This document shows positions 1 to 63,307 of a stretch of 63,435 nt of DNA, piece after piece. The position numbers and the translations under genes were made by a program. The notes beneath the pieces were generated by a model. That model was not told the DNA's origin. It was given only the letters and a program-made list of their open reading frames with translations, and ran no database searches. The DNA lies in the IMG/VR virus record IMGVR_UViG_3300033146_005951, positions 1 through 63,435 of that record; one strand, written 5' to 3'. Origin of the DNA: a virus. Numbering within the stretch: the first letter of the stretch is position 1; each line of letters starts with the position of its first letter.

Positions 1-1
1 A

Positions 2-1075: not shown

Positions 1076-1087
1076 AGTTGCAGTTTA

Positions 1088-1128: not shown

Positions 1129-1152
1129 ATTAATAAAGGATAGAAAAGTTTT

Positions 1153-2376: not shown

Positions 2377-2377
2377 A

Positions 2378-5762: not shown

Positions 5763-5774
5763 GAAGGTGTATAG

Positions 5775-10538: not shown

Positions 10539-10554
10539 GCCATTGGAAACAGTA

Positions 10555-24091: not shown

Positions 24092-27000
24092 ATGGAAAAT
24101 ACAATAATTCCTTTAAGTTTTGATGTAAGTGCTCTTCAAGGCCAACTTGATGATATTACTAAAATAATGAATAAGACTTTTGCTTCGTTTGGTAGCAAAG
24201 GACAATTCAAAAGTCTTTCTACTGCCATGAATTCATTTAAAGGTAGTTTTGGTACTATCAATAAATCATTAAAAAGTATTGATTCTAATTTAGGTTTACT
24301 TGTCATTAATATAAATAAGATGTCGAGTAGTTTACAAGAAACAGGTAAAGAAATGAGTACCTTACGACAAGGTACTAAAGATAGTATTGTTACTACAGAA
24401 AAACTTGTTGGTGGTTTTAGTAAAGTTCAATCTGAAGTTAAAGAAACTCAATCATTATTAAAGAAACCTATGAGTTTAAATATTGATTTAGGTAAGACAG
24501 ATCTTGTAGGTCCTCTTGAAAAGCAATTAAGTACAGCACAACAAAAAATTAACCAAGCTTATAAATTTGAAACCCCTATTGGAAAGAAAGCTATATCTTT
24601 TGTTGATGAGACTAAAGTCAAAAATGATGTCAAAGTTTTTGAGAATGCTTATTCTGAAATTAAAAATTCGTCAGATGCTATGATAACTTATGTTCGTGGG
24701 ACTACTCGAGATATTCTTAAGCATCCTATGAATTCACTTGAGCAGTTTCAAAATTTATGGACTAGAACTATTTATAATCTACAGTCGCATAAGACAGGGC
24801 GAGAAGCAATTCCTTTATTCACTCTTACAGGTTCTGAGCTTGGCCCCATATCTGCTGCAATAGAAAAATTAGCTGAATTTCGAAAAGTAAGGCGAGGTTT
24901 AGATGTTGAATCCTTAAAGAGTTTTGAAAGTAGGCCTTTTGAAGAATTAGCTAAATCTTTAAGTAAATCTGGGTTTGCATATGACGAATTAATTGAAGCA
25001 GCTAGGGCTTTTAATGTATTGGAAGTAACTGGAGAAAAGCATATAGATGCTAATATTAAACAAACCAAAGAATATAAAGTTTTAGAAAAAGCTATTAAAT
25101 TATATTCAGAGGCTGTGGCTGTGGCTGATAGACAAATGGAAAAATCAGGAACAGTATCTGATGGGCAGGTAACAAAAGTAAAAAAATTAAAGCTTGCAAT
25201 GGATGAAGCAAGAAAGTCTGTAAGCTTAAAAGGAGAAATCGTATCAGTTAATGCTTTAGCTGGGACATTAGAAAATTTAGGTGATGTTGCCGGCACAAAA
25301 GTTACAGCTGCATTTCATAAGTTAGCTAGTTCATCTAAAAAGATTGGTAAGGAAACATGGGCTAAAGTTTTTGAGGCTAAAGATATTGGGGGATTTCAAA
25401 AAGCATTAGTTGTTTTAGAATCAAAATTAGGTCAAGTTGGTAAATCTAATCCACAAATTGAAGCGTTATATAAAAACTTTAGTAATATAAAACAAATTGC
25501 TGAAACTCATTTTGCTGCAAAGATGTCTGCTGAGTTTGAGGAAGGTGCAAGTAAATCTGAGAAAAAAATTGGTGAGTTATATACTAAGATAACTAAGTTA
25601 CAAAGTCAAGTTGCAAAAGGGGAGCTTCCTCAAAGTGCTTTAGTTGGTCCATTCAAAGCACTTTCAAAAGAAGTTGAATCTCTAATCAAACGCTCTCAAG
25701 TATTAAATGTTTCTTTAGATCAAATAGAGCAATCTAAGGGTCCTTCGGCAATGCGGTATGAGAAAGGACCGAAATCAAGTAGTACAGAATCTCGTGACCT
25801 TGCAACAACATATCAGGAAGGTGTTAGTGAAAAACAAATTTCTTCTTTAAGCACTCTTCAGTCTGGATTAAGAGGAGTTGCTGATCAATTAATATATGCA
25901 AATACTGAACTTAAGGTTTCTGAGGCTGCGTGGGTAAGTTGGGGAGAAGCTAGAAAAAAGATTGTTTTTGATCTTCGTAAAATTACAAGCGAATTTGAAG
26001 TACCGGTTGAAGATGTTTCTCGTACAGATATATCTAAGAAACATAGACAGTATGCAGATTATCAAAAACAAATTGATAGTTTAGTTAAAAAAAGAAAATT
26101 GCTTGGTATGGTTGATAAATCAAGCTATTCAGAATCTCTTTCACAAATGAAAAAAGTATTATCTGGATTACCTCAATTAAATGATTTACAAAAAAGAGGT
26201 AACCAAATTGTACGTGAAAGAAAAGCTTTACTTGATGCTACTGCAGGTAAAGAAAAGACCCCAGAACAAATAGCTCATCTTGAAAAATTAAAGAAGCAAT
26301 ATAAGGAAGTTAAAACTGCTGAAACCGAAGTTGCGAACGTTACTTTATTAATTGCAAATGAAATGGATGTTCTTGCAAGTAAGTCCGCTTTTAATCCAAC
26401 AGATATCGCACGTATCTCAGAGTTTGCTATTGAATTACAAAGAATAGATTCTCTTATTAAAACCATTAGCGGTAAGTCTTCATTGAGTATAAGCGCAGAT
26501 GTTGAAACCTTACAGAGAAGTTTAGGTACGATTAGTAAGGATGCTATTCCAATTAAGACAAAAATCACTATTGATCAGAAAGCAATAGATAAAGAGATTG
26601 CTACATTAGGCCAAAAATTTCATGCTGCAATGGCTAAAGAACCTAAAATTCGTACAGAGACAAGAACAAAAACTGCGTTACAAACTATCCGTTCAACTCA
26701 AAATGCAATTGGTAAGTTAGATAAACAATTGTTTGCAATGACGGATTCTGCAAATGTTGCTTTGCGTAATATCAGAATGGATAAAGCTTTAAATCCTAAA
26801 GATGCAGAGCAGTTAATGAAACCATTACAAAATTTAGTTTCTGAATTTTCTGGCTTACAAAAAGATATTTTGTTAATAGATGAGTCTTTAACTAAATTAG
26901 GTTCTAACCCAACTGAAGAACAAATGCAGAAGGCCTGGTCTCAGCTTGAGCCTGTCTTTTCTAATGCTTATGAGAAGATGAATTTATTTTCTGGGGTATA

Positions 27001-30000
27001 TGATAATCTTTCAAAAAAACAAGGTGGTGCGACTGCTGCAACTAATAATATGGTTTCATCACTAGAAAGGTTAATGCAAAAACCTACACGTGCAGCAAAG
27101 TCATTTGATATTTTAATTGATTCATTATTAAGAACTCAGGGTATAGCAGGAAAAACAGATTTAGCTAAACAGTTAAAATCCCCCGATAAAGCAATTCGTG
27201 AATATGCACAGAAAATTTCTGCGTCAATTGGAAAAGCAAGAACTGGCTTAGATACTATTGCTGGAGAAGCTCTTGGCCCTGAGGCAAATAAAAAAATTAA
27301 GCAGAATATAAAAAGAGCAGAAGAGAATTATGTGAAGCAGGTTGCTGATGCACAAAAGCGAGCCAGACGTAAATTAGACTCATTAATTAAGAAGGCAGAG
27401 GCTGGTCCTGGGTTAAAACGTAGTGGTGCTATTGATAGTGCAAAAGCGGCATTTGGTAAAGAAATTGGCGCATCTATTATTTCTGCAAAAAAAAGCTTAG
27501 AACAAGAGAAAGAAAGAATTCTTAATGTTCCTGTAAAATTAAAACCAGGTGTTGAGGCTGATCTTGTACTTAAAAAATGGAAAAGTACAATACAAGCTTT
27601 AGTTACTGATTTTGGTCAAGGAGGTAATTTAGCTGCTCAGAAATTTCAAGAAATGTATGCTTCAACAGCAGGCGGTTTTAAATTTGATCAGTCATTGTAT
27701 AATGTAGCATCTAAAACTAAAAGCTTATTGGGTCAAACTGGTTCGTTCTTTAAAACAATGGGCTCTCGTAGTGGTGATGTTCTGCCTTTAGAAGAATTCG
27801 ATCAATTAATTAAAAGACAAAAGCAGTTTCAAAAAGAAGGGGCACTTAGTACTGTAGCTCTTAATCCAATTATTGAGTTAGGTAGTGTTATATCAAATAC
27901 TGCTAATGTATTTGATAAGATGAAATTAGCAGTTAAAGCTTCTGCTTCTCCAGAGGTTATAGATAGTATTCAAAAAGAAATTGATCAATTCATACGTCTT
28001 CGTAAAACATCAAAAGATTCAACTGCACAATTATCTCAGCAAACTAAAGAAACCCGTGGCTTAGGTTTCACCATGGAAAAATTTGGTTATGCTATTGATC
28101 TCCTTATTCAATATTTAGAAAAAGCCATTAATAAATTTCAAGGTTTAGGTAAAACTGCGCACACTGCACTTAGTGGCATTGGGTCAAGTTTAAGAGGCCA
28201 AGCTGGTTTATTTAAATCAGGTTTAGCAGATATTGAAGGACCAATGTTTGATATTAAGCCTGAAGGATTTAAGTTAACCAAGCCTTTAGAGTCTATGTTT
28301 TCTGAGATATATAATTCTTCATTAACTAGTTTGCAAGATTTACGTAAGGTGACTGATAAAGGGTTATCTGCTTGGTCTGTAAGTTTTAAAGGAGGATTGT
28401 CGAAGACTGATAATGTAATAAAGCAAAATGGGTCTGCTTTAATTGGGGGTTTAAGTAAAATAAGAAAAAGTGTTCAAGCATCTACTGTTGTAAATTGGGG
28501 TAATATAATTGATCCTAAGGGGGCTGAATTATTAAGAAAATCAGCAGTGGGTATTGATTTACAATTAAAAGAACTGCAAACAAGTATCGCAAGGTTTAAA
28601 ACTGGTAAGATTTCAGAGGTATCTTCCTTTCCTACAGTTAAAGCTTTACAAACTCAATTAAAAACAGTATTATCTGTATCTGAAGAAGTTAAGCGTAAGC
28701 TTGCAGCAGGTAAATTAGGCATGGAACATTTTCCAGCAGTTGATAAATTACAACAATATGCCCTACAATTAACTGCTGCAATTGATATGATCGAAAAACC
28801 ATATAAATCTATGAAAGGATTAGCTGGTCAAGAAGAAAAAGTTAGCACAAAACAATTAGGCAAATCTTTTAGGTCAGGAATAATAGGTGCTCAAAAAGAA
28901 TTAGAGGCTGCTGTTAAACAGGTAAAGACTCCAATGAAGTCTGTTATGGTCAGGTTATTTGAAGACGTGCTTTCAATGACACCTACTGAGATTCCCCAGG
29001 CAGCAGGAATGATGAGGAGTTTAGCTGAACAGTTTCCAAGTCAAATGCAATCTGCTTTTAATGTAATGGGTAAGAAAAAATATGAAGTAGGTAAGTTCAT
29101 TGCAAAAATGTTTAGCATAGATCCAAGTGAATTTAAAACAGTTGAAGCAGCTATGGAAAAGAGGGGAGCTGAAATTCCTAAAATGCTTCTCAAGGCTATT
29201 TTTCTAACTGAAGGTCAGGCAAAGTTTGCAGCAGATGCAAAGAAGTTGGCTAATCAAGTAATTACTGCTCCCCTAAACAAAGCCCTTCGGTCAGCAGGAG
29301 AAGTCACTATGCCCAAATTCGAAACTTTTCGAATTGGTGATGAAATGATGAGAGCCGCAAAATTTGAAGGTGAAAAATTTACTCAAGTAAAGTCTCAATA
29401 CGGAACTTACATTTCAAGTTTAATTAATGATATAAGCAAACTTATGAAAGTTTCTCCATCAAAAACAATGAAACCAATATTGGAGAAAATTTTTAATGCA
29501 AGTGATGTTAATGATATTAATGCTTATGCAAATGGCATGAAAGGGGCTTTAAGCAATATAAAAGATTATCTTCAGAAAGCTGTATCTGGTAAATTGCCAA
29601 AAGGGCAATTAGCAGCTGGTTTAGGTTTGCAAGAAGAATTTAAAGTAGCAGGTTTAGATATAGATGAAAATGAACTATCTCAAATGTTTGAGCAAATGTA
29701 TAAGACGGCAGGTCAATCATTAAAAGATTTTGTTGCTCAAGAAAAAAGGTGGAGCTCAGATTCGATTAAAGATTTAATAATATTAATGGAGTACTGGGAA
29801 AATTTAGGTGGCATGGTTGATATGGTAACCAAAAAGATACCTAAAGTTTCTAATATGAAAAACATTTCTGAAACAATGTTTAAGGGCACAGAGAGCGGTT
29901 CAGTTGCAGCTGGCCGTGATATGGCTCGATTAATGGTTACAGCATTAACATCTACTTTATCTGAGGGAAGCGGAATAAAACAACCTTTAGCTGCAATGAT

Positions 30001-33000
30001 TGGCAAATCTCCTGAGGTCATATTTGAAATAATGCGAGGTACAAATCAAAAACTTAAAAATGAATTAAGAGATTTAGGTTTTAATTTACGTGGAAGTACT
30101 ACAGATTTAGTTAAAAGTATTTCTAAGTTGGGTGATGTAAAAGTAGGTACTGAATGGTTTGAACAATATAGATTGGCAAATGAGAGATTTAATATAGAAG
30201 GTGAAAAAACAGGCATAGTATTAAAAAAGATCCGTGATGGATTTAATACAATAACACCTTTAAGTTCTGAGGGGTTATCTGAACTTGCAACTCGTTCGCA
30301 AGATTTTCTTACTAGAGCAGGTATTGCATTTGAAAGCTTTGATACAAAGTTGTTTAAGCACTCTATTAACTTTAATGCATTTAGTGAAAAAGAAAAAGCT
30401 AATGTTGGAAAGTATACTAATATACTTTCTAAAGGTATGCGTACTATAGGACAATTCCTCCAAGAAGATCCTTTTTCAGGTAGCATAATGCGTTTAGTTA
30501 GAGAAGAAGATGTTCTTTGGGAGAAACTAATTGTTTCTGCTGATAAAGGAGGCAAGAAACTTAAAACAAGCATTCAATCTGAATTAGCTAGGGCACTTGA
30601 TACAACCAAACGTGAAGGAATTAATTTAAATAGATTATTCAAAGGCACTGGTAAAGTTCCTGAGCTCCAAGAAATTATTGGGCAGTTAATGGAGTTACGA
30701 AAAACCAAGCGTGCAGTTGATACTGAAATGATGGCACCTGGTGTTAGACCTTTTAGTAATCTTATTAAAGACGCTTCATTACTGCAAGGAACATTATTAA
30801 CTGCTTTTGGTAGTATATCTAAAGGATTGTCTCGTGTAGGTGAGACAGGCAAAGTAGATATTAAGATGGGCAATTCTATCAGAAATCTTGATACAGTTAC
30901 TCAACATTTAAATATACTTCAAGCAGAAATTGACGAAACAATTGCATATGCAAAAAAGACAGGTCAAACTTTACCTTTAGAGTTTCAATTAGTAACGCGC
31001 TCAGTTTCAGATATGGGTTCGAGCCTTAATAGTTCATATGAAGTTTTAAAAAAGTTACCTACTCACGCAAAGGTCTCTGAAAAAGATATGGAGAAACTTG
31101 CTGAGACAGTAAATAAATCTGCAAGCGCTTTGAAGAAATTTGATCAGATAGATCTTAAAGAATTTTCTTCTAGAGTAGGTACAGCAATGTCTATTGCTAT
31201 GAATAAGGTTAATGCTTTTAGTAAGCAAGCTCAAATAAGGCCTTCATTTCAGCTAGGTAAAACTGGTGTTGATCAAATACTTAAAGCTACTGGCAGTGAT
31301 TCTGATAAGATGATTCAGCAATGGAGAGAGTCTGCTGTAGCAGGTGGTGATACATGGAAACAGATGACAATGTTTCTAAAAGAATTAGAACCTGAAATGA
31401 AAGGAATTTTTGAACGTTTTGCAAGTAAGCCTAGATTATTATTAAAAGCTTTTGATAAAATGACTCCCCAGATGAGAATATTAATGTCTTTATATTTTAA
31501 TGAAATGGGTCATTCTACCGCACAAGGTTTTCAAAAGTGGATGCAGACATATGATAAATATTTTAGCGGTATGACAAAAACAAATAAAAGGCATCTTGAA
31601 ACCTTTTTAGGATATACCTCTCAAACTATGGCATCTTTTAAAGCCCCTGATGTAACTAAGTATTTTGCTCCTGAAACAGGATTAGAAGCAGATAAAACAA
31701 CAGAAGGGTTAAAGAGGCTTGGTAATGCTTTATCTAAACTTGGCATTAATATGAAAGAATTAAAAGATCTTTCTGGAGATACTTCGTGGTTGAAAAAGTG
31801 GGGAGAAGCTTTTGCTACACCTATAGATTGGGATTTTGGCCCAGGCAAAGGGAAGACAATTCAACTTACTGGTACGTTTAGTATGTTTGCTAAAGCAATT
31901 ACTCATGTAGGTGAGGGGTTAGATATATTAATGACTCAGTTGCGTAGAGTAGGAGAAGAAACTCAATCTGGTGCAATTCAAAAAGGAATCAAACAATTAG
32001 TTGCCCTCATTATGCAATTAGATGCTGAGTTTAGTAAAACTTCTAAATTTAAATTATCTATTGGTGCAGGATTAAGTACAAGCTTAAAACCTTTAAGAGA
32101 TGTAGGTTATGCAATAAATAGTTTCTTTGATGCAATGGAAAAAATCAAACTTGCTTCAGATTTTACTTTAACTCAAAAAGAAATTAGTTCATTTGGTAAT
32201 ATAGTTATAATAACAATGAATCAAGTTGCTGCTGCAATGAGTCCTGCTGTTAAAGCTTTAACTGGGTTTGCAAATACAACTGCTGTTAAAAGATTCTCTC
32301 AGTTTGCTCAAGGATTACGTGATTTAGTTGCTGCGACAAAAGACCTTTATCAATTTACAGCTGTATTTAGTGAGATAGACAAAGATTCTAAAAAAGGAGC
32401 TACTGCGTTAGGTCATTTTGAAAAAGTAATGAAATCAATGATGATCTTATTGAATAGCATTCCTGATATATCTAAAAAACTTAATTTTGGTGTAAGTAAA
32501 GATGCAGCAAATAATGCTAGAATGCTTGTTGAGGTATTAAAGCCACTGGCTCAATCTATGTTAATGATTGGTGAGGCTTTTAAAGGAAATGTTAATATCG
32601 AAAGCAATATGAAGAGATTTTCTTCAGCTTTAAAAGGAATGATTAATGTTATTAGAAGTGTTGATTTAGATCCAGTAACTAAAGATTTATTAAATGATAT
32701 ACGTAAACTAACTCAAATATTTAGTTCTAAAGCTTTAGTTGCAACACCTGATGAGGCAGAAAAAAGGCTTCAAGTCTTGGCTCAAGTAATTGAGCAAGGA
32801 TCAAATAAAGTTGCACAAAAAACTAAGCAGGGTATTGAGAAGATGAATCGAGCTTCAAAGACCCCAAAGACTGATTTTTTAACTGATTTAGGTATTACTC
32901 CAGGCAAGGCTACAGGTGGTGGGGGTATTGTATCTGATTTAATGGATATTCAAACTAGTTTTTCAGAGCCAGTGCCAAATTTTGATGCCAGTGAACAAGC

Positions 33001-36000
33001 AATGGGGCATTTAGCTAGTGCTGGAAAAGAAGTAGGAAAAGTACTTCAAGTTATTAACAATGCTGTAATTAAGTTAGGTTCAGAATTTAAAGAAATTCTT
33101 CCTGGAGAAGAAAAGTTTATTACAGAATTGACTCAATTAGCTGCATTGAATCCTGCTGCAGCTATTGATAAATTAAATATTAAATTGAATTCGTTAGGTA
33201 AAAATTTAGCGGGTGATAATTTAAAGAAATCACAAGATGCAATACAAGGGTTTATAATTGAATTATTAAATGGTGCTGCAGGTCTTAAATCAATGGGTGC
33301 TGCAGGTACTGAACTGCAGAAGATCCATGATAACTTAAATAAAGATACAGTTAGCACTAAAGAATTAACTATTGCATTGACAAAAGTTAAAGGAGTTTTA
33401 AAGAGTGTAGAGGTTGAATCTGCAAAACTTGATTTACAAAATCGATTATTAAAAACAAGAGGGGAGGCTAAAGGTGTCCATACAGAAATAAAAAGTTTAC
33501 TTATGTCTATGAAAGCATTAGGTCCCGAGTTTAGAAAATCTCTTTCTACTGGTGATGCTAGGCGTGAATTCCTTTCTTATTCAAATGAGCTAGGTTCAAA
33601 ATTAGAGACTGCAATGGGTCCAATGAGGGCATTTTCTGGATTCAAAGGAGTTAGCGAAGAAATTAAAAAAATGACTTCGAGTATGGCCGTATTAAAAAGC
33701 CAATCTCAAGGCATGGTTACTTTAGCAGATCGGTTTACAGGTAAATTAAGAATTGCAGGAGATCAGTTTTTAAATCTAGTTGCATATCAAACTAGGTGGT
33801 ATGTTTCACAACAAATCTTTTTTATGGGGTTTGGTCAGATACAAAAAATACTTTCTAATTTTGGTGCTTTGGATATTCAAGTAAGAAGAGTTCTTCGTGT
33901 TCTTCGTGATTCTAATAATGCAGTGTTGGGTATTGATTCTTCAATTCGGGCTTTATCTGGAGCAGGTGTTAAGTGGGCTTCTGATTGGGCTCAGAATATG
34001 GAAGTAATGTTTAAGGCCCAGACAAGATCTACGTTTTATAGTTTATTTAAACAACTTGGTACAACCTCTGAAGAAATTGGTGAGTCCATGTATCAGTTGG
34101 GTTCTGCAGGTTTGCAAGCAAATGAAGTAATGTCTGCCATTGAACCAACTCTTCGAATGATAATTGCTACTGAAGGTGAAGTTAAAGATACTACTCGATT
34201 GATAGCAGGTGTTTTTAATTTATATGGAAATTCAATTGAAGGAGCAAGAACAAATACTGAAAAGTTTGTATATATCACTGATGTATTAACTGCAACATTT
34301 AGAGATCATATGGTTACGATTGGAGAACTCATTACTGGTATAAGTTATACAATCGCTACTGCTAAACTTTCTGGTATGCAATTTGAAGAAGTAACTGCGG
34401 CACTTGCAGTTTTAAATGATAATATGTTAAAGGGTTCAAAGGCGGGCCGTGCATTTAATAGGATGCTTTTAAATTCAACTAAAAGATTAGATGAAACAAA
34501 AGATATTTTACAAGCAATTGGAAATCAGGCAAATATAGGAGTTGATTTAACAAAGATTTTTGAGGGGTTGGAAGTCAGTGGAGCTAGACCATTTGATTAT
34601 ATTATTCAAGCTGGCATAGCAATGCAAGAACAATTAAAGACTGCTAATCTTACAGTAGAGAATTTAACTAGGACTTTTAAGTCTATGGGTGTAGTTGGTG
34701 CTCGTGCTTTTGCCATCCTTTTATTAAAAGCTGGTGATTATGAAAAGACATTATTTCAGTTAAAATATGCTGCGTTTAGTGCTGGCGAAGATATGTCTGA
34801 ATTATTAATTGGTGGTTTTGATAGATCAATTCATCGAATTGAAGGTTTCACTCGAGCAGGTTATGCGCGTGTAATGGGAATAGCTCGTGGCGGCGTTACC
34901 GTATTAGCTTCAATGGTTCAGCAAGTAGAAAGTGGTATTAAGAGAATTTCTGAAATGCCTTTTATTCCAGATATTCCAGATGTTAAAAGTTATATTTCAT
35001 TTTTTGGTGTAGTTGCAACTGGTGCTGCAATATTTGCTGGAATTAAGAAAAAGCCTTTGCCTGGATTAGATGCTTTGAGGTTTGATAAGTGGGCTAAAGG
35101 AATTAATAAGTTTACTCTTAATATAGATCAAAACAGAACTGCATTAAAGTTACTCAATGTTGAATTAAGAAAGACTGGATTAAATGCAATTAATTTAGGT
35201 CAAGCATATGAAACTGCAGCAAATAAAATGACTGCAATGAGTAAAATGGGATCTACAATGTCTACGTTTAAAGGACTAACTGGATTAACGTCGTCTTTTA
35301 AACCTCAACAACAACTTATTATATCTGGTTTAAAAGATATTGAAAGAGCTTATACAAAAGTAACTTCAGGCAAATGGAGTATGGGAGATCTGACTGAATT
35401 TAATAGCCAGATGAAATCAATTGCTGCATTCGAACCGACTTTCTTAGCCCGTGAGAAAGAATTTACTATTAAAACTAATTTAACTCGAACCATTAGTGAG
35501 TTTCAAAGAGGATCAATTTCTGCTGATCAATTTAGAGATAGACTTAATGCTGTTCATAAAGAAACTATTAAAGCCAGTGGAATGTCAAATTTAACTACTA
35601 AATTAGATATTTTCGAAAAAGAATTAGCAAGTGGTTCTATGACTATGAGCCAATATACTACTAAATTACGTCAGTTGGGTATTGAAGCAAATAAATTAGG
35701 TAGTATAAAAACTTTTGGATTAGGTGCTGTATCTACAAAAGGATTTGCTGAATCATTTAAAGGAATGAGTAAGTTAAATAAATTATATTCTTCGAACATG
35801 GATCAAATGAGCAAGATAGGCATTAAGTCTATGGATCAAGTTTTTAATTTAGTTAGAAATCCTGCAGCTTGGAGTGAATTTGCATCTAATATGACTAAGA
35901 GTTATAGTAAATTTGATTCTCAAACTCAAAAAGTTTCAAATCAGTTTGGTAGGTTAGTCGATCAAATATCAACACCAATTCGTAAAGTATCTATAGGAAT

Positions 36001-39000
36001 TTCTCAAGATGCTATGGAAAAAGATTTTGTTAAGCAAACAAAAAGCATGTCTGTTTTAAAAGAATCTTGGAAAGGATTTGCAGGAGGTGTTGGCCTTGGT
36101 ACTTCAAAGTTAACAAGTTGGTTTAAAACTATGCGAAAAGTAATGAGTGGCATAGTTCCTCAAATTGGAGAATTTGATTCTTCATTCAGTAAAGCAGTTG
36201 CCAAACGTGAAGCTTTAGTTAAGGTAGCTGCAGGATTTAGAGGAATAGGTGGAGCAGCACGTGGAGCAGCTATAGCAGTTAAAGGATTCTTAGCGTCTAC
36301 TATTGCACTTTTAGCTTTATCTGTTGCAGTGCAAAAAGCTTTTGAGTGGTTCGAAAAACTTTCGCGTGGTACTGAGTATTATGCACAAATATTGGGTACA
36401 GTAAACGCTGAATTTAATAAAACTGTTGCAAGCCTTACAGGAAATATATCAGGAATTACTAGATATGTTGATAAGCTTAGTGAATTACGTGAGTCCATGA
36501 ATATGCGTCTTAAAATTGATGCGGATATAGAAACCAAAGAATTTAATAGAGATTTGTCTCATTTAAGTGGTTTATTAGAAGGTACTTTTCAATTTGAAAA
36601 TTTTGAATTTAATGTAAAATATGGTACTGTAACTGATGCAATTGTTGCTTGGAGGGATTTAAATGATGTTATTGCAAATTTAAAAGAAGAGACATCAAAT
36701 AAAGCAATTGGTCGATTTGTTGAATTAGGCAATGAGTATAAAAAGGCAAGTGAAATTTATAAAAATACAATTACAACTGCACTCGAAGGTTCTTGGTTGA
36801 AATCTCGTTGGGATTCTTTTAGGGGCAAAGAGAAAAGCACTAGTTTAAAAATTAAAATAGAAGATTTGAGTGACCCAGATAAAGTTAAATTTAAACGCCA
36901 AGGCCAAGAAGCAGCCAAGCTCATGATTGATTCAGCTAAAATAGTTTTGCAGCAGGGCGCTACAACTTTTGATTTAGTGTGGGATAAAAATTCAATTGCT
37001 ACTTTCGATCGACAATTAAATAATGTTTTTGAATCTACAACTTTGTTTGGTGATAGCCTCAAAACTACTAATTTAAAATTTAATGTTTTTATTAAAAGAA
37101 TGAAGCAAAGTGCAAAAACTGCTGAATTATTTGATCAATTTAAAGAAGTTGGTGAAAATTTAAACAAGGTATTTCAAGTAGGGGGTGCTGAAGAGTTTGC
37201 TACTTTTATGAAAATGTTTCCTAATTTAGCTTCTGAAAGTAAAGATGAAGTTAAAGGTCTTGCTGATTCGTGGGCTAGTTTAGGGGAAGATGAGAGAGCA
37301 GTTGTTTTGATTAACGCAGCACGTAAAGATCTTAAATTATTTCATAAATCTATGAAAGCAGTTTCTGCAGATGGTAGCATGTTACAAGCAGCAGATTCAA
37401 CTAAAAAATTTGTTGAGGTTGCTATTACTGACATATCAATGTTAAATACTAGTATTGCACAGATGGGAGGTACATTAGCAAGAGAATTTGAAAGTACTTG
37501 GAGTCGTGCTTGGGGTCAATGGGTCAATGAAGGAGTTACTGCTTCACTTGATGTAGATAAAGCTTTAACTGGTTCTTTTGAGTATGGTTCAAAATCTATT
37601 TTAGGTAAATTAGAAAGAGATATTTCAAAAACCACAGATCCAATAGTTAAGAGTTTTACTTCAGCATATACAAAAGTGGGTAGCGTTTGGGCTAAAGAAA
37701 CCTCTAAAATGATAAAGGACAATAAACTCCCTAAAGCATTTAGTAATTGGGGTAATGAATTAAGAGTTGCTTTAACTAGTCCTTGGGCAAAAGCTAGATC
37801 AGCACAAGATGAGTGGCGTTCAGGTATGAACAATGCTGTTGATGCTGCAATGATGAGATTTAATTTATTGCAAGAATCAATGTCTAAAATGGGTAGTTTA
37901 GTTTCAGAAGAGTGGCTGCGCGCTCAATCAGCAATATCCAATAACACTTCATTTGGTTCTGAAAAAGATGGTGAGGATGCAATAGAAAAATTTACTGATG
38001 GAATAGAGAAATCTTTAAAAGCAGCAATTAAGAGTGGTCATAAGGGAATTCAAGATTTAGCAAAGGCTATGTCTGGTGATGTATCAGGTGCAATAGATTT
38101 AACAGTTAAGCGCATGGAACGCTTAACTAATGTAATTGCACAAGCTAAGAGTCTCAGTATTGAAGTAAAAGATGCAATAAGTAAGTGGGAGGGTAGTATT
38201 GTTTTAACAAATAAAGTTCTTAGTGTTACTCTTGATTATTTGAAGAAGTTTGCTAAAAATGCTGATATATCTAAAACAGTTCGAGATATGAATGTTGCTT
38301 TATTAAAGAATGAAAAACTTAGAGCTAAAGAAGCATTTGAAAGGGGAAAAAAGTTAGGTGTCTCTGATGAGGATAAATTGAAAGGGGCTAAAACTTATTT
38401 AGAAAGATTAGATCAAATCAACGAGAAGCTGATGTCTTCAGCAGTAGAAAGCCTTAAGAAGCATATATCAGATAAGGCTAAAGCTGAAAAGAAAGAAATG
38501 ATTGAGCGACATAAACGAGAGAACAGAGCAGCTAAAGAAAGCCAGTCTTTACGAAAAATATCTTATCGTGAAGAAGTTAAAGATGCAAAAATTCAAGCTG
38601 CTTCTATAAAGAAAATTGAAAAGCTTAGGTGGAAAAGACCAGGTTATAAGGCAGATGTTGATCAGAAAATTGAAAATGAAAAAATGTGGGGTGAGCGATC
38701 TCGAGATGAAAATAGGCATAATAGCGAAATGTCAGCTCAACAAAAAAAGTTTAATGATGATGCAACAAAAGCTCGTAAAGAAAGACAAGCTGCTGAGTTA
38801 AAAACACTTGAAGAGACTGGCGGAAAAACTGCTAAGTCAATGCAAAAATTAGCTGAAGTTTTGGCTGATATTGACAGTGGTGAATTAAAAATAAAAAGTA
38901 TGGATGAATTATTAGTTCATATTACTTCATTGGGTGATCCTGAATTAACTAAGAATTTTAAGTTATATTTAGATGAAATCAAAAATACTAATGTGGAAAT

Positions 39001-42000
39001 ATCTTCTATTGGTGTTGAAGCGAAAGAAGTTGCTGATCGAGCAGAAAAGTCTCGACTTGAGACAAAAGATGCTTTAAAGAGTTTAGTCTCATTGCAAGAG
39101 AAACTTACAAAGTACTCAGAGACAGTTTCTAAACAAAGCAAAGTAATTGCTGATTTATTAAAACGCGAAGGATTAACTCAAGCAATTCAAGCATTAAGTG
39201 CTATGGGATTTAATGTTAAGTTAGATAAAGAAGGAGTGTTTAAAGATGATAAGACTCTTGGAATGTTCAATAAATTAATTGGAGAAGCCAGTGAAGGTTT
39301 AGTTGATGCAGCAAATAAATTACAAGCACAAGTTCAACCTATTAAAGCTTTTGGTAAGATTCCAGTAGAAAAAGAAGATGTTGTTTCTAGCATATCTCGA
39401 CAATTACTTAATCTTGGTAAATCTTTTCCAGAAGTCAGTTCTCATATCGATGAACTTAGCACACAATTTATTATTCAGTTAGATCGTATGAAAGCATCTG
39501 GAAAAACTCAAGAAGAAATTGATTCTAGATTAGGTGTTGTTTTAAGCAGTATTACTGGCATAAGTGATGACGCTAAAAATTTAAATCCGACATCAATGAG
39601 CTCTTATTTAGATGATATAACTAGCATGTTGAAAATCACAAGCAATGATCTTAAGCAAATTGATATTTCAAATATTCAACCATCAACTACAAAAGCTTTA
39701 TTGCAAGAAAAGATTCAACCAATTGCATCAGAAACTACATTGAAAAATATTCAAAAGAATCAGAATAAAATTGATTCTTTTGTTAGTGAATTGCCTCAAT
39801 GGACTGAAGTTGCTGATAAAGTTGAAGAAGTTGCAATTTCTTCTTTTGAGGATGTAAGTCAAATGGCTCAAAATATTTTTGATGCTCAGAAGAAGAAAGT
39901 TCAGGAAGGGTATCTTGCCAGAGATGATTTTCGTTTGCGAGATGGAAAGCTTCAAAAACGTACTGCACAAGCAGATGTAGTGCTTGGAAAAATGATTCCG
40001 ATTGACATCACTAAAATTCTCGATGCAGATACTTTTCAAACTAAAATTGGGGATGCAGTTGTTAATCTAAGACTTGCTTTCATTGATGCATTAGAATCAA
40101 ATCAAGCAGGTAGTACCTTACAAACCGAAGGAATAAGAAATTTAGTTGATGAGTATAAAAAATCAGGTTATAGCATTCAAGCATTTTTTAAAGAGTATGA
40201 TGAGAAAAGCAATAGATTAATATCTACTATTTATGCAACTAAAGATGGTGAAAGTATAGATATCAACCAGGAAGCAATTGCTAGAGGAATTGCACAAGTA
40301 TTTGTCCCTAAAGGAATTATTTCTACTGAAGATAGAAACGTTATTCAGGGTTATGGTAAAATCCAAGAAGCAGCTAAAGAAATGAGTGCAGGTATTCATG
40401 GATTTTCACAATGGTTGTCTACTACGTATCCAAATATGACAATGCAGCTACCTGAGAATTTTAGGGAGATAGTTGGTCGTGGTGATGAAGTAGATATCAG
40501 AACTATTCTTGAAAATGAATCTAAATTAAAGGTTGCATTTAATGAATATTTAGATAAACTTGGTAAAAGTCCAATATACACTGAAGAAGAAATGGCAGTG
40601 ACTGATAATGCAGTTAATCAATTACTTAAATTAGGTTCAACTAAAGGTTCGATATTTGTCCATGATGTTCATTTAGATGAATCGATAAAAAATTTATTTT
40701 CTGCAATAAAAGCTCCTGGTGTGAATTATGAAATACAACAAATGCCTGAAATAAATTCTGAGGTATCAGGTAATTCTATTAAGAATGCTACTGTTAAGTT
40801 AGAAGAAAGTACTTTTAAAGTTAGTGAATTAATGCAAAATCTTGAAGGTGTGTTTGATCAAAATTTTATTAAAACATTGCTTGATGCACTTCCTACAACA
40901 CAAGATACTACAGAAAATTTAATGAGTAAGCTTGCTCAGGAATTTTCTGATTTAAGAGATGTTTTTGTTAAAGGCGTACAATCAATAATATCTGCAATTA
41001 TATCAAAGCAGTTAGTTGTGAATTTACCTAATAACAATGAAATGGCTAATAATATTAAAAAATTTACTGATCAAGCAACTGAGAAAGGGTCAATATTTAC
41101 TCATGATATTCATTCAGAAAGTGCAATAGTAGATTCTGCTAAACAATCAAAAGAAGGTTTAAGTAAAGTTGCAAAAGCACAGTCAGAAACTTCAGTTAAA
41201 GTAGGTAATTATATTTTTGAATTAGATAAAGCAAATGATAGAATTTTTCCTGCTGCAACTACGGGTGTATTTGGTGTGGAAGGTTTAGCTTATGAAAAAT
41301 TTAAAGCATTAGAATTTAAAATTCCAGATGAAGATGTAAAAGGGCTAAGTGAAGGTATTGTTAATTCAATGAAACAATATGCTGCACAGGATAAAAGAAG
41401 ATCAGAAACTACATTGCCAAGTAAAGACTGGTCTGATCAAGAATATCGATCCTTAAAACTTACAAACGCTTTTGATACTGTAATTCCTCAATTATATGAT
41501 ACAGTTGCAGAATTATCTAAAAGTGTACCGGAATCTGCTTATAAAGAGATGATATCTGCAGTTAATGACGCCTCAATGACTTTATCAAATTTTAGTAGAG
41601 AAAAATTAGGAGGCAACCAAAGTATAGTTTATGATGTCTTAATGGAAGCAAGGAATAAAATAAATTCAATATCACAACAATCGCAAATCCAAACAAAATT
41701 ACAACCAGACAATACAAGTAGTAGAGTTGGATTAATTCAAGAATCTTCTAATTTTATTAATTCAATGTCAAAAGTAACAGATCAATTTAATGAGGAATTT
41801 TTAATTAACAATAAGTTACTTAATACAATTAAATCTACTGATTTAAGCGGTTCGATGTTCGATAGAGATAAGATTAAAAATTTATCAATGGAAATTGTCA
41901 ACGGGATGATTTTAATCAAAGATAGTACTACGGGAATAGCCCATGGATTTAAAACAGCAGAAGAAGCAGTTGCTAAAATTGGAGACACAACTTTTAATGC

Positions 42001-43348
42001 TTTGAAAATCAAAAAAAGAGAACAGAAATTTGAAATATCAAATCCTCAGTATGAAGCAAGCTTTCAAAATCCATACGAACAACCAATTACTTATGAAGTT
42101 CAAGGTGCGCAGGAAATAGATGCAAAAATATCTGATGAAAGCATCCAAATATTTAGAGATATTTTAACAGGTGCTGTATATGCTTCTAATGTAGGTTTTA
42201 CTGGTTTTACTGGAAGTGGTGCAGCAGCTGTTGAAAGATCTAGAGAAATTTCTAACTTGATGCAAGGAATAGAAGATACTTTTGGGAAGGGCTTAACTAA
42301 TGCGTTATCGAACGCTTTTCCTTCTTTAGGCAGTCAAGCGCAAAGTTCAATGGTAGAACTTTCGCAAAAATTCACAGATTTACAAACCGCCTTATCTTCA
42401 AAAGGTTCGACAGAAGCAAATTCCGAAGTTCAATCTTTCTTGTCTTACTTAGAAGGATTGTCTAATAAAATGGGTGAAGTTCAATCAAAGATGACTGTTC
42501 CTAGTGAGAAATATACAGCCCAAATAGAAATGTTTTCTGAGGCCTTAAATACTATTAAAACTAAAGTTGCAGATTTTACTTTGGAGGCACCTAAAGAAGC
42601 AGAAGTTTTAAGTGAAGCTACAGATGATGCATCTACTGAAATGGTAGAGTCTGTAGTTCCAATGTCTAATGCAACTAAAAATTCTACTGAATCAATCAAT
42701 ATTTTTGGTTCAGGATTAATTTCTTCATCTGCAAACATTTCTGAAGCAATAAGTTCAGCTATATTTACAATTAATACAGCTGCATCTAATGTAAGAAGTG
42801 GTGGTGTAAATATGGGGCTTTTTCAAGATGGGGAATCTGAAATTTCAATGAGTGAAGTTGCTGATATGGTATCTCAGTCATTAGAAAATTTTAGTAGTAG
42901 TTTAGATAATGCTGCAGGTGGGGCCAGTGACGCTTTGGAAGATATGGGAGATGCAGCTGATAATGCTGGAAATGTATTAGGTGGTATGAGTAGGTTTGGT
43001 GCACGTACTGGTATTGTGTTACCTGGCTATGGTGGAGGAGATCGTATTCCATTTGATTTAGAGCCAGGTGAAGCAGTAATAAATAAAGAAGCTGTTCGAA
43101 TGTTTGGCAGAGATTTATTTAATAATTATAATCAAGGCAAAAGTGCAACAAGTATGCCTTCTGTAGGTAAACGATTAACTAAAGTTCGTTCTGTTGTTGA
43201 AAAGAAATTATTAAATGACGATTCTCCAATAAGAAAATTCGATATTAATTTAGCTGGTGTGCCTTTTAAGGGTCTCGCTACAGAAGATATGATCAATCAA
43301 TTAGAGAAAGGTTTGAAACGCAAACAATTAGTAGGTCAAAATATATAA
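24092..43348 (+). CDS. Giant tail tape-measure protein with embedded nuclease domain
   Basis: One open frame of 6418 aa, no internal stop. The N-terminal half is almost entirely long helical, Lys/Glu/Ser-rich repeats. A TP901-type tape-measure core lies at about 3230-3560 (TSEEIGESMYQLGSAGLQAN, GMQFEEVTAALAVLND, KGSKAGRAFNRMLLNSTKRL). Hydrophobic segments follow near 3633 and 4063. An SNase-like domain sits at about 5295-5410. The C-terminal motif GYGGGDRIPFDLEPGEAVIN (near 6310) is the common tape-measure end. The protein fixes tail length and enters the host envelope on ejection. At about 1.5 angstrom per residue it would specify a tail near 0.9-1 micrometre. The ATG directly follows the stop of the upstream gene. 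Confidence 0.93.
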   Translation: MENTIIPLSFDVSALQGQLDDITKIMNKTFASFGSKGQFKSLSTAMNSFKGSFGTINKSLKSIDSNLGLLVININKMSSSLQETGKEMSTLRQGTKDSIVTTEKLVGGFSKVQSEVKETQSLLKKPMSLNIDLGKTDLVGPLEKQLSTAQQKINQAYKFETPIGKKAISFVDETKVKNDVKVFENAYSEIKNSSDAMITYVRGTTRDILKHPMNSLEQFQNLWTRTIYNLQSHKTGREAIPLFTLTGSELGPISAAIEKLAEFRKVRRGLDVESLKSFESRPFEELAKSLSKSGFAYDELIEAARAFNVLEVTGEKHIDANIKQTKEYKVLEKAIKLYSEAVAVADRQMEKSGTVSDGQVTKVKKLKLAMDEARKSVSLKGEIVSVNALAGTLENLGDVAGTKVTAAFHKLASSSKKIGKETWAKVFEAKDIGGFQKALVVLESKLGQVGKSNPQIEALYKNFSNIKQIAETHFAAKMSAEFEEGASKSEKKIGELYTKITKLQSQVAKGELPQSALVGPFKALSKEVESLIKRSQVLNVSLDQIEQSKGPSAMRYEKGPKSSSTESRDLATTYQEGVSEKQISSLSTLQSGLRGVADQLIYANTELKVSEAAWVSWGEARKKIVFDLRKITSEFEVPVEDVSRTDISKKHRQYADYQKQIDSLVKKRKLLGMVDKSSYSESLSQMKKVLSGLPQLNDLQKRGNQIVRERKALLDATAGKEKTPEQIAHLEKLKKQYKEVKTAETEVANVTLLIANEMDVLASKSAFNPTDIARISEFAIELQRIDSLIKTISGKSSLSISADVETLQRSLGTISKDAIPIKTKITIDQKAIDKEIATLGQKFHAAMAKEPKIRTETRTKTALQTIRSTQNAIGKLDKQLFAMTDSANVALRNIRMDKALNPKDAEQLMKPLQNLVSEFSGLQKDILLIDESLTKLGSNPTEEQMQKAWSQLEPVFSNAYEKMNLFSGVYDNLSKKQGGATAATNNMVSSLERLMQKPTRAAKSFDILIDSLLRTQGIAGKTDLAKQLKSPDKAIREYAQKISASIGKARTGLDTIAGEALGPEANKKIKQNIKRAEENYVKQVADAQKRARRKLDSLIKKAEAGPGLKRSGAIDSAKAAFGKEIGASIISAKKSLEQEKERILNVPVKLKPGVEADLVLKKWKSTIQALVTDFGQGGNLAAQKFQEMYASTAGGFKFDQSLYNVASKTKSLLGQTGSFFKTMGSRSGDVLPLEEFDQLIKRQKQFQKEGALSTVALNPIIELGSVISNTANVFDKMKLAVKASASPEVIDSIQKEIDQFIRLRKTSKDSTAQLSQQTKETRGLGFTMEKFGYAIDLLIQYLEKAINKFQGLGKTAHTALSGIGSSLRGQAGLFKSGLADIEGPMFDIKPEGFKLTKPLESMFSEIYNSSLTSLQDLRKVTDKGLSAWSVSFKGGLSKTDNVIKQNGSALIGGLSKIRKSVQASTVVNWGNIIDPKGAELLRKSAVGIDLQLKELQTSIARFKTGKISEVSSFPTVKALQTQLKTVLSVSEEVKRKLAAGKLGMEHFPAVDKLQQYALQLTAAIDMIEKPYKSMKGLAGQEEKVSTKQLGKSFRSGIIGAQKELEAAVKQVKTPMKSVMVRLFEDVLSMTPTEIPQAAGMMRSLAEQFPSQMQSAFNVMGKKKYEVGKFIAKMFSIDPSEFKTVEAAMEKRGAEIPKMLLKAIFLTEGQAKFAADAKKLANQVITAPLNKALRSAGEVTMPKFETFRIGDEMMRAAKFEGEKFTQVKSQYGTYISSLINDISKLMKVSPSKTMKPILEKIFNASDVNDINAYANGMKGALSNIKDYLQKAVSGKLPKGQLAAGLGLQEEFKVAGLDIDENELSQMFEQMYKTAGQSLKDFVAQEKRWSSDSIKDLIILMEYWENLGGMVDMVTKKIPKVSNMKNISETMFKGTESGSVAAGRDMARLMVTALTSTLSEGSGIKQPLAAMIGKSPEVIFEIMRGTNQKLKNELRDLGFNLRGSTTDLVKSISKLGDVKVGTEWFEQYRLANERFNIEGEKTGIVLKKIRDGFNTITPLSSEGLSELATRSQDFLTRAGIAFESFDTKLFKHSINFNAFSEKEKANVGKYTNILSKGMRTIGQFLQEDPFSGSIMRLVREEDVLWEKLIVSADKGGKKLKTSIQSELARALDTTKREGINLNRLFKGTGKVPELQEIIGQLMELRKTKRAVDTEMMAPGVRPFSNLIKDASLLQGTLLTAFGSISKGLSRVGETGKVDIKMGNSIRNLDTVTQHLNILQAEIDETIAYAKKTGQTLPLEFQLVTRSVSDMGSSLNSSYEVLKKLPTHAKVSEKDMEKLAETVNKSASALKKFDQIDLKEFSSRVGTAMSIAMNKVNAFSKQAQIRPSFQLGKTGVDQILKATGSDSDKMIQQWRESAVAGGDTWKQMTMFLKELEPEMKGIFERFASKPRLLLKAFDKMTPQMRILMSLYFNEMGHSTAQGFQKWMQTYDKYFSGMTKTNKRHLETFLGYTSQTMASFKAPDVTKYFAPETGLEADKTTEGLKRLGNALSKLGINMKELKDLSGDTSWLKKWGEAFATPIDWDFGPGKGKTIQLTGTFSMFAKAITHVGEGLDILMTQLRRVGEETQSGAIQKGIKQLVALIMQLDAEFSKTSKFKLSIGAGLSTSLKPLRDVGYAINSFFDAMEKIKLASDFTLTQKEISSFGNIVIITMNQVAAAMSPAVKALTGFANTTAVKRFSQFAQGLRDLVAATKDLYQFTAVFSEIDKDSKKGATALGHFEKVMKSMMILLNSIPDISKKLNFGVSKDAANNARMLVEVLKPLAQSMLMIGEAFKGNVNIESNMKRFSSALKGMINVIRSVDLDPVTKDLLNDIRKLTQIFSSKALVATPDEAEKRLQVLAQVIEQGSNKVAQKTKQGIEKMNRASKTPKTDFLTDLGITPGKATGGGGIVSDLMDIQTSFSEPVPNFDASEQAMGHLASAGKEVGKVLQVINNAVIKLGSEFKEILPGEEKFITELTQLAALNPAAAIDKLNIKLNSLGKNLAGDNLKKSQDAIQGFIIELLNGAAGLKSMGAAGTELQKIHDNLNKDTVSTKELTIALTKVKGVLKSVEVESAKLDLQNRLLKTRGEAKGVHTEIKSLLMSMKALGPEFRKSLSTGDARREFLSYSNELGSKLETAMGPMRAFSGFKGVSEEIKKMTSSMAVLKSQSQGMVTLADRFTGKLRIAGDQFLNLVAYQTRWYVSQQIFFMGFGQIQKILSNFGALDIQVRRVLRVLRDSNNAVLGIDSSIRALSGAGVKWASDWAQNMEVMFKAQTRSTFYSLFKQLGTTSEEIGESMYQLGSAGLQANEVMSAIEPTLRMIIATEGEVKDTTRLIAGVFNLYGNSIEGARTNTEKFVYITDVLTATFRDHMVTIGELITGISYTIATAKLSGMQFEEVTAALAVLNDNMLKGSKAGRAFNRMLLNSTKRLDETKDILQAIGNQANIGVDLTKIFEGLEVSGARPFDYIIQAGIAMQEQLKTANLTVENLTRTFKSMGVVGARAFAILLLKAGDYEKTLFQLKYAAFSAGEDMSELLIGGFDRSIHRIEGFTRAGYARVMGIARGGVTVLASMVQQVESGIKRISEMPFIPDIPDVKSYISFFGVVATGAAIFAGIKKKPLPGLDALRFDKWAKGINKFTLNIDQNRTALKLLNVELRKTGLNAINLGQAYETAANKMTAMSKMGSTMSTFKGLTGLTSSFKPQQQLIISGLKDIERAYTKVTSGKWSMGDLTEFNSQMKSIAAFEPTFLAREKEFTIKTNLTRTISEFQRGSISADQFRDRLNAVHKETIKASGMSNLTTKLDIFEKELASGSMTMSQYTTKLRQLGIEANKLGSIKTFGLGAVSTKGFAESFKGMSKLNKLYSSNMDQMSKIGIKSMDQVFNLVRNPAAWSEFASNMTKSYSKFDSQTQKVSNQFGRLVDQISTPIRKVSIGISQDAMEKDFVKQTKSMSVLKESWKGFAGGVGLGTSKLTSWFKTMRKVMSGIVPQIGEFDSSFSKAVAKREALVKVAAGFRGIGGAARGAAIAVKGFLASTIALLALSVAVQKAFEWFEKLSRGTEYYAQILGTVNAEFNKTVASLTGNISGITRYVDKLSELRESMNMRLKIDADIETKEFNRDLSHLSGLLEGTFQFENFEFNVKYGTVTDAIVAWRDLNDVIANLKEETSNKAIGRFVELGNEYKKASEIYKNTITTALEGSWLKSRWDSFRGKEKSTSLKIKIEDLSDPDKVKFKRQGQEAAKLMIDSAKIVLQQGATTFDLVWDKNSIATFDRQLNNVFESTTLFGDSLKTTNLKFNVFIKRMKQSAKTAELFDQFKEVGENLNKVFQVGGAEEFATFMKMFPNLASESKDEVKGLADSWASLGEDERAVVLINAARKDLKLFHKSMKAVSADGSMLQAADSTKKFVEVAITDISMLNTSIAQMGGTLAREFESTWSRAWGQWVNEGVTASLDVDKALTGSFEYGSKSILGKLERDISKTTDPIVKSFTSAYTKVGSVWAKETSKMIKDNKLPKAFSNWGNELRVALTSPWAKARSAQDEWRSGMNNAVDAAMMRFNLLQESMSKMGSLVSEEWLRAQSAISNNTSFGSEKDGEDAIEKFTDGIEKSLKAAIKSGHKGIQDLAKAMSGDVSGAIDLTVKRMERLTNVIAQAKSLSIEVKDAISKWEGSIVLTNKVLSVTLDYLKKFAKNADISKTVRDMNVALLKNEKLRAKEAFERGKKLGVSDEDKLKGAKTYLERLDQINEKLMSSAVESLKKHISDKAKAEKKEMIERHKRENRAAKESQSLRKISYREEVKDAKIQAASIKKIEKLRWKRPGYKADVDQKIENEKMWGERSRDENRHNSEMSAQQKKFNDDATKARKERQAAELKTLEETGGKTAKSMQKLAEVLADIDSGELKIKSMDELLVHITSLGDPELTKNFKLYLDEIKNTNVEISSIGVEAKEVADRAEKSRLETKDALKSLVSLQEKLTKYSETVSKQSKVIADLLKREGLTQAIQALSAMGFNVKLDKEGVFKDDKTLGMFNKLIGEASEGLVDAANKLQAQVQPIKAFGKIPVEKEDVVSSISRQLLNLGKSFPEVSSHIDELSTQFIIQLDRMKASGKTQEEIDSRLGVVLSSITGISDDAKNLNPTSMSSYLDDITSMLKITSNDLKQIDISNIQPSTTKALLQEKIQPIASETTLKNIQKNQNKIDSFVSELPQWTEVADKVEEVAISSFEDVSQMAQNIFDAQKKKVQEGYLARDDFRLRDGKLQKRTAQADVVLGKMIPIDITKILDADTFQTKIGDAVVNLRLAFIDALESNQAGSTLQTEGIRNLVDEYKKSGYSIQAFFKEYDEKSNRLISTIYATKDGESIDINQEAIARGIAQVFVPKGIISTEDRNVIQGYGKIQEAAKEMSAGIHGFSQWLSTTYPNMTMQLPENFREIVGRGDEVDIRTILENESKLKVAFNEYLDKLGKSPIYTEEEMAVTDNAVNQLLKLGSTKGSIFVHDVHLDESIKNLFSAIKAPGVNYEIQQMPEINSEVSGNSIKNATVKLEESTFKVSELMQNLEGVFDQNFIKTLLDALPTTQDTTENLMSKLAQEFSDLRDVFVKGVQSIISAIISKQLVVNLPNNNEMANNIKKFTDQATEKGSIFTHDIHSESAIVDSAKQSKEGLSKVAKAQSETSVKVGNYIFELDKANDRIFPAATTGVFGVEGLAYEKFKALEFKIPDEDVKGLSEGIVNSMKQYAAQDKRRSETTLPSKDWSDQEYRSLKLTNAFDTVIPQLYDTVAELSKSVPESAYKEMISAVNDASMTLSNFSREKLGGNQSIVYDVLMEARNKINSISQQSQIQTKLQPDNTSSRVGLIQESSNFINSMSKVTDQFNEEFLINNKLLNTIKSTDLSGSMFDRDKIKNLSMEIVNGMILIKDSTTGIAHGFKTAEEAVAKIGDTTFNALKIKKREQKFEISNPQYEASFQNPYEQPITYEVQGAQEIDAKISDESIQIFRDILTGAVYASNVGFTGFTGSGAAAVERSREISNLMQGIEDTFGKGLTNALSNAFPSLGSQAQSSMVELSQKFTDLQTALSSKGSTEANSEVQSFLSYLEGLSNKMGEVQSKMTVPSEKYTAQIEMFSEALNTIKTKVADFTLEAPKEAEVLSEATDDASTEMVESVVPMSNATKNSTESINIFGSGLISSSANISEAISSAIFTINTAASNVRSGGVNMGLFQDGESEISMSEVADMVSQSLENFSSSLDNAAGGASDALEDMGDAADNAGNVLGGMSRFGARTGIVLPGYGGGDRIPFDLEPGEAVINKEAVRMFGRDLFNNYNQGKSATSMPSVGKRLTKVRSVVEKKLLNDDSPIRKFDINLAGVPFKGLATEDMINQLEKGLKRKQLVGQNI
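39974..40321 (+). other. SNase-like (thermonuclease) domain inside the tape measure
   Basis: Residues about 5295-5410 read IDITKILDADTFQTKIGD, then VVNLRLAFIDALES, then a helical part, then YDEKSNRLISTIYA and a last helix EAIARGIAQVFVPKG. Compared with staphylococcal nuclease, D5311 and D5313 fit D19 and D21, and R5327, D5332 and E5335 have exactly the R35, D40, E43 spacing. R5375 is a candidate for R87. Thus the calcium-dependent phosphodiesterase site appears intact. Family knowledge predicts DNA and RNA cleavage to 3'-phosphates. Confidence 0.8.
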
Positions 43349-61692: not shown

Positions 61693-61771
61693 ATGCTTAG
61701 CTAATATTATTTTATTATTTTTGTTTTTAAGGCATCCTGCCAAACACACACCTCGCAACTCCCCTATGTGT

Positions 61772-61861
61772 ATCACCCGCCTTGGCATGCATCTATCTAT
61801 CGTAGCTATAATATATATCACCCGCCTTGGCATGCATCTATCTATCGTAGCTATAATATAT
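61772..61861. repeat. 45-bp tandem repeat, two copies
   Basis: Two adjacent copies of a 45-bp unit start at 61772 and 61817 (ATCACCCGCCTTGGCATGCA...). Each holds GCATGC, CTATCTATC and GCTATAATAT, the last a possible -10 box. The GC-rich CACCCGCC is unusual in this DNA. Slight sequence decay at the ends marks the repeat limits. Confidence 0.8.
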
Positions 61862-61964
61862 ATCAAGTGTTTCGGATTATATCTTAATCACATTTATATG
61901 AATTTATCTTTCAGAAAGACAGTACTTATTTTTAATACCATTTTTGATTTAAGCTATGAATTAT

Positions 61965-62110
61965 GGCCAATTTTATAAGATGCATATGATTTTATGTAAT
62001 TTATATTTTCTATAGCTAGCTTCGCATGGAGCACTATAACTTCATATAATAAGCCAGATTTTTAAAGCCATAAAATAGTAGATAACTTATTGAAATTATT
62101 GTAAATTTAA
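61965..62110 (-). promoter_or_regulatory. Inverted relative of the 52.6-kb control region
   Basis: Read on the minus strand, this stretch carries TGGCTTTAAAAATCTG, then GCTATAGAAAATAT, then CATAAAATCATATGCAT and TTATAAAA. The plus-strand region 52555-52665 carries TGGCTTTAAATTTCTG, GCTATAGAAAATAT, CATATGATTATATGCAT and TTATGAAAA in the same order. The shared order over about 100 bp is unlikely to be chance. It could be a second promoter pointing left or a binding site. Confidence 0.55.
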
Positions 62111-63053: not shown

Positions 63054-63073
63054 GTCATGTATAGGAATTATTG

Positions 63074-63307
63074 ATGAGCTGGTTAAAAGCAGTTGAACAA
63101 AATGGCTGGGCATTAAAATTTTGTTCAGTTCAGACTAAAGAAATATGTTTAGCTGCAGTAAAGCAAAATGGCTTAGCTTTAGAATATTGCTTAGTTCAGG
63201 ATGAAGAGATATGCTTAGTAGCTGTTAAGCAAAATGGCTTAGCTTTAAAATATGTTGATAAGCAGTTTGTTGATATTTATACTTATTGTAAATTACTATA
63301 TAGTTAG
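63074..63307 (+). CDS. DUF4116-repeat protein, 77 aa
   Basis: The ATG at 63074 lies behind a modest AGGAATTATTG; a TTG at 63071 would add one residue. The protein consists of about three 23-25-residue repeats (KAVEQNGWALKFCSVQTKEI, AAVKQNGLALEYCLVQDEEI, VAVKQNGLALKYVDKQFVDI), the DUF4116 signature: xAVxQNGxALxYxxxQxxEICLxAV. Such helical repeats occur in large DNA viruses and some bacteria; function is unknown. A second gene of the same family follows at once. Confidence 0.75.
   Translation: MSWLKAVEQNGWALKFCSVQTKEICLAAVKQNGLALEYCLVQDEEICLVAVKQNGLALKYVDKQFVDIYTYCKLLYS

Follow-up and report, generated by a model that had tools for sequence, protein, structure and literature searches.

A staphylococcal-nuclease-type domain inside a giant phage tape-measure protein, a candidate effector of phage entry

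In the virus record IMGVR_UViG_3300033146_005951 from IMG/VR (63,435 nucleotides, analysed over its full length and here called the window; G+C 32.6%), a single uninterrupted open reading frame (ORF) of 6,418 amino acid residues (24092–43348) encodes a tape-measure protein, and in its C-terminal third we identified a domain of the staphylococcal nuclease (SNase) type (residues 5290–5435, 39959–40396; the ORF and all its features lie on the plus strand), recognized by means of Pfam, a custom profile, BLASTP, an AlphaFold2 model and Foldseek. We propose, with a probability of roughly 0.55, that this domain is an SNase-fold phosphodiesterase or nuclease, carried as an exchangeable accessory module by the tape measure of a giant siphophage and delivered at entry. 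The fuller proposal, in which an active SNase-type nuclease or phosphodiesterase borne by the tape measure would reach the host before the genome, disarm host or rival elements and replace the usual wall hydrolase, is tentative and falls somewhat short of even odds.

A first-pass annotation, made from the DNA sequence alone, had placed an SNase-like domain inside the tape measure, and profile scores, BLASTP and the structural model bear this out. The search with the Pfam SNase profile (PF00565) that it proposed as a check was successful in part: the profile was matched nearly end to end (positions 2–104 of 107), but the score of 18.3 bits (E = 0.0034) does not reach the curated gathering cut-off of 21 bits. 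A custom profile, built from 16 Sulfurimonadaceae SNases and run against the whole tape measure, retrieved a single domain, at residues 5290–5435 (i-E 6.6e-9), and the excised domain scored 30.1 bits with this profile versus 13.3 bits for the best of 20,000 shuffled sequences. BLASTP against stand-alone viral SNases gave at best 31% identity over 99 residues (E = 2e-7), the overall identity to 51 stand-alone SNases is 19–28%, and the sequence matches in the PDB are weak (E from 0.14) and all to thermonucleases. The motifs ILDADTF and LRLAFIDALES are present, as had been noticed; the extent first given to the domain (39974–40321) is in frame, but the last helix lies beyond it and the domain continues to about nucleotide 40396. 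Judged from its sequence, we regard the homology of the domain to the SNase family as settled. A chance resemblance without homology, for which the low Pfam score and a poor unguided model could be invoked, is refuted in practice by the shuffled sequences, all far below the observed score, by the independent profile and pairwise matches and by the order of structural elements in the model, which is that of SNase.

The structure was predicted with AlphaFold2 twice, without an alignment and with an alignment of 51 viral SNases. The alignment-free model is poor (pLDDT 41), and its second half has the helix-strand-strand-strand-helix order observed in SNase. The family-guided model reached a pLDDT of 88.4 and a pTM of 0.80, with most of the domain above 90, and its secondary-structure elements follow each other as in SNase. 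Structure prediction had been the second check proposed, and it came out in favour of the family: in Foldseek, the guided model matched SNases best in the PDB (E = 1.2e-9, target TM 0.80), the listed matches are all SNases, and the viral proteins closest to it in structure are thermonuclease-like, one having 1,342 residues. The predicted fold, an SNase OB-fold with C-terminal helices, is taken as support and not as proof, because the supplied SNase alignment biases the model.

When the domain is aligned with the 51 stand-alone SNases, D5313, R5327 (40070–40072), D5332 (40085–40087) and E5335 (40094–40096), the last corresponding to the general base, occupy the positions of D21, R35, D40 and E43, in agreement with the first-pass annotation. 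A fifth catalytic position, which had been overlooked, is also kept, as R5375 (40214–40216) corresponds to R87. The segment D5311-A5312-D5313 (40022–40030) corresponds to D19-G20-D21, with Ala in the place of Gly, so that the D19 equivalent, D5311, is present together with every catalytic position (the equivalents of D21, R35, D40, E43 and R87). The domain had been described as intact, and this is only half right, because the catalytic set is complete but residues of the putative substrate-contact region are replaced: the predicted catalytic machinery is present and the predicted nucleic-acid-binding side is altered.

Several observations weigh against the proposed entry enzyme. The Gly of the DGD motif and the Pro of the PE motif, both invariant in the family, are replaced by A5312 and L5334, respectively; Tyr85 and the Tyr113/115-type residue, invariant residues of the substrate site, by S5373 and K5407; and the C-terminal Trp by H5436. 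The net charge of the domain is −5, compared with −2 to +10 (mean +2.8) in the 51 stand-alone SNases, making it more acidic than all of these enzymes, with an unusually acidic surface. The lost tyrosines, Gly and Pro, together with this charge, would count against a simple DNase. Furthermore, the good structural model depended on the SNase alignment, the fusion is borne by one sequence alone, the contig of the nearest relative stopping at the domain edge, and a non-specific nuclease would need a safeguard near the phage's own incoming DNA. The replaced residues and the negative charge also favour the main rival explanation, according to which the SNase fold was kept and the enzyme lost, leaving a structural or binding module for spacing, for holding the DNA end in the tail or for binding an envelope component. 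Catalytically dead SNase domains do exist elsewhere, as in Tudor-SN, but dead SNase domains usually lack the catalytic Arg/Glu/Asp set, and here the full set was retained despite an overall identity to stand-alone enzymes of 19–28%; we consider such a module unlikely.

The ORF at 24092–43348 is a tape measure, since it contains the conserved PhageMin_Tail core (residues 3319–3494, 34046–34573; PF10145, E = 2.3e-23) and matches several tape-measure PHROGs. As expected for a tape measure, it is the longest ORF and is flanked by head and tail genes, with terminase, portal, head protease, major head and head-tail genes before it and more tail genes after it. Two hydrophobic segments, possibly membrane-spanning, are present at residues 3633–3655 (34988–35056; Kyte-Doolittle mean 1.72) and 4061–4083 (36272–36340; mean 1.99). 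Pfam recognizes one enzyme domain only in the 6,418 residues, and neither here nor in the scanned tail proteins did it find a peptidoglycan hydrolase. Tape measures usually scale with tail length at 0.15 nm per residue, and at this value the very long protein described here would correspond to a tail of near 960 nm. Such a tail would exceed those of P23-45 and P74-26, which are >800 nm long (PMC9022992).

For comparison, tape measures whose core is related were gathered from viral contigs and genomes. A quick PF00565 search of the genomes overlooks even the weak match of the window itself, which makes its negatives for related records weak, and it was hence repeated with our own profiles; the SNase domain is absent from the approximately 30 related tape measures, tested with two SNase profiles. 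The accessory enzymes seen by Pfam in these proteins are wall hydrolases only: an M15/VanY-like domain (a weak match) in the C-terminal part of one tape measure (L001), an SLT domain in the C-terminal part of another (L005) and, of 22 others, two with SLT and one with SLT_3. Peptidoglycan hydrolases had been named as a frequent cargo of tape measures, and the SLT, SLT_3 and M15 domains of the relatives, none of which carries an SNase, agree with this. The nearest complete relative in viral contigs (L017, core identity 46%) aligns with residues 841–5025 and 6200–6417, leaving a variable C-terminal region at residues ~5026–6199 (39167–42688); between the two aligned blocks it has about 310 residues, without an SNase, compared with about 1,175 in the window protein, the SNase domain among them. 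A recent gene insertion was also considered from base composition and gave no signal, the G+C of the domain (33.3%) being equal to that of the whole gene (33.4%).

The closest relatives overall are encoded in two contigs of the Sulfurimonas metagenome bin JAERRX01, which suggests a Sulfurimonas-type host. One of them (L014) is 77% identical over residues 984–3865; the other (L062), a 4.3-kb contig with the relative at 1–3216, aligns up to residue ~5290, where the contig ends at the edge of the domain. The assembly may, for instance, have broken there at a variable cassette. The portal gene, compared with Sulfurimonadaceae, gave only matches of 21–27% identity, which are uninformative on the host.

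In 80alpha, T5 and JBD30, the tail tip is where the C-terminus of the tape measure is attached, and this end was proposed to be the first part out (PMC7048315, PMC11445458); in lambda, the tape measure reaches the inner membrane while the genome is entering (PMC13190303). In the window protein, the SNase domain is located approximately 1,000 residues from the C-terminus, beyond both hydrophobic segments (from residues 3633 and 4061), and, being C-terminal to both, it should exit the tail ahead of them. By analogy with the phages mentioned above, the tape measure would lie in the tail with the C-terminus towards the tip and its C-terminal part would be released first upon infection, so that the SNase domain may precede the phage DNA into the envelope and possibly also into the cytoplasm. 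Its most likely task there would be to cleave phosphodiester linkages in nucleic acids or in nucleotides, belonging to the host, to a rival element or to a defence signal, with the help of calcium and the conserved Asp, Arg and Glu residues. The data are read most economically as suggesting an entry effector with phosphodiester-hydrolysing activity, its activity, target and compartment being predictions. The idea of a nuclease that attacks nucleic acids at entry was already put forward in the first-pass annotation; the SNase fold and the full catalytic set in the C-terminal part, which is tip-proximal in other siphophages, are in its favour, but the losses at the substrate site and the charge speak against a simple DNase. 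SNase is a calcium-dependent enzyme, and the suggestion in the first-pass annotation that a lack of calcium might keep the domain inactive in the virion is a reasonable one. The scarcity of calcium in the cytoplasm would limit an SNase there, which favours periplasmic action or a changed metal requirement.

The domain could instead act in the envelope, replacing the peptidoglycan hydrolase of the relatives, its substrate being, for instance, nucleic acid outside the cell or in the periplasm, or another phosphodiester-bearing polymer. This would be consistent with stand-alone SNases being mostly secreted, with the C-terminal wall-cutting enzymes of the related tape measures and with the negative Pfam result for such hydrolases in this tape measure and the tail proteins scanned, but a hydrolase may merely be too divergent for detection and we know of no nucleic-acid barrier in the Gram-negative envelope, and we judge this explanation rather improbable. 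An injected phosphodiesterase directed at the nucleotides, cyclic or linear, that serve the host as defence signals, and not at DNA or RNA polymers, would fit a domain in which the catalytic set is kept and the polymer-binding features are weakened; to our knowledge, no SNase-fold enzyme acts on such signals. Injection of phage proteins with the DNA and phage phosphodiesterases acting against nucleotide signals have both been proposed (PMC7824862, PMC5512222), but this explanation requires delivery to the cytoplasm and its substrate is purely conjectural, and we find it quite improbable.

No close relatives of the domain itself were found in viral contigs or in 50,697 named phages. When stand-alone SNases were used as queries in the named phages, no feature named tape measure was present among the matches listed; a weak match (E about 1) to Giuseppe gp30, a mycobacteriophage minor tail protein, was not upheld by the SNase profiles. 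The 80 viral SNase loci are all stand-alone ORFs of 140–263 residues, and PF00565 is present in 76 of the 228 Sulfurimonadaceae genomes, in frames of 63–354 residues, none giant among the matches listed. We did identify giant phage ORFs with an embedded SNase adjoining the gene of the terminase large subunit, two with 1,276 residues (L177, 7127–10957, and L178, 1708–5535; Pfam SNase E = 2.5e-22) and one with 1,521 residues (L180, 1860–6425; E = 1.3e-12). By eye, their N-terminal DIETSG or DIETTG resembles a DnaQ-type exonuclease motif, and their products are possibly virion or injected proteins. Full-text searches of open-licence papers found no description of a fusion between a tape measure and an SNase or thermonuclease, which is weak evidence of absence. 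The one published precedent for an SNase fused to a tail protein is the hub protein of the BtI1 prophage, whose N-terminal SNase domain has a use that its authors called obscure (PMC2147016).

Elsewhere in the window, an ORF within the head gene region (10543–11793) contains an ATP-dependent DNA ligase domain (PF01068, E = 9.7e-13), and a homing endonuclease ORF (19951–21363), matching both LAGLIDADG and HNH, is located between the head/connector genes and the tape measure. The stretch from 57654 to the end of the record (63435) is AT-rich and gene-poor, with small ORFs, and repeated peptides were noticed by eye in it, among them RLGMHLSIVAIIYI at 61721–61978 and KQNGxAL at 63071–63307.

Tape measures with accessory enzymes are known, and what is new here is a predicted accessory enzyme of the nuclease type. 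Since such enzymes are usually viewed as wall cutters, a nuclease-fold domain would show that a tape measure can carry an effector for the very start of infection, at which few phage proteins are known to act. Seen alongside the BtI1 hub and the giant ORFs that bear an SNase next to terminase genes, it points to a recurrent, unexplored use of SNase in late-region phage proteins.

In comparison with the SNase/thermonuclease family (PF00565), the domain is alike in its modelled fold, in the order of its elements and in the equivalents of D19, D21, R35, D40, E43 and R87; it differs in scoring below the family cut-off, in the replacement of G20, P42, Y85, the Y113/115-type residue and the terminal Trp, and in being embedded in a 6,418-residue protein, whereas the family members are usually secreted proteins of 140–260 residues. 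With the tape measures that carry peptidoglycan hydrolases (SLT/GH23, M15 and others), the window protein shares the family, the core and the C-terminal placing of the enzyme, but its cargo is a nuclease-fold domain and not a wall hydrolase; in enterococcal tape measures, lytic transglycosylases only were described (PMC10194240). The BtI1 hub is similar in having an SNase fused to a tail protein with which the phage first contacts the cell, but it is a homologue of T4 gp27 from a contractile-type phage and not a tape measure (PMC2147016). The giant ORFs of L177, L178 and L180 also hold an SNase within a very large phage protein of the late/packaging region; unlike the window protein, they are not tape measures and give clear Pfam SNase matches. 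Polyvalent injected proteins resemble it as a concept, nuclease or nucleotide-active domains being delivered with the genome, but they are not tape measures, SNase is not named among their domains (PMC5512222), and they combine several disparate effector domains, whereas Pfam sees a single enzyme domain here. In the SNIPE defence, too, a nuclease encounters a tape measure at the inner membrane as injection proceeds, but that nuclease is a GIY-YIG enzyme of the host, directed at the phage via its tape measure (PMC13190303), and here the tape measure itself contains the nuclease-fold domain.
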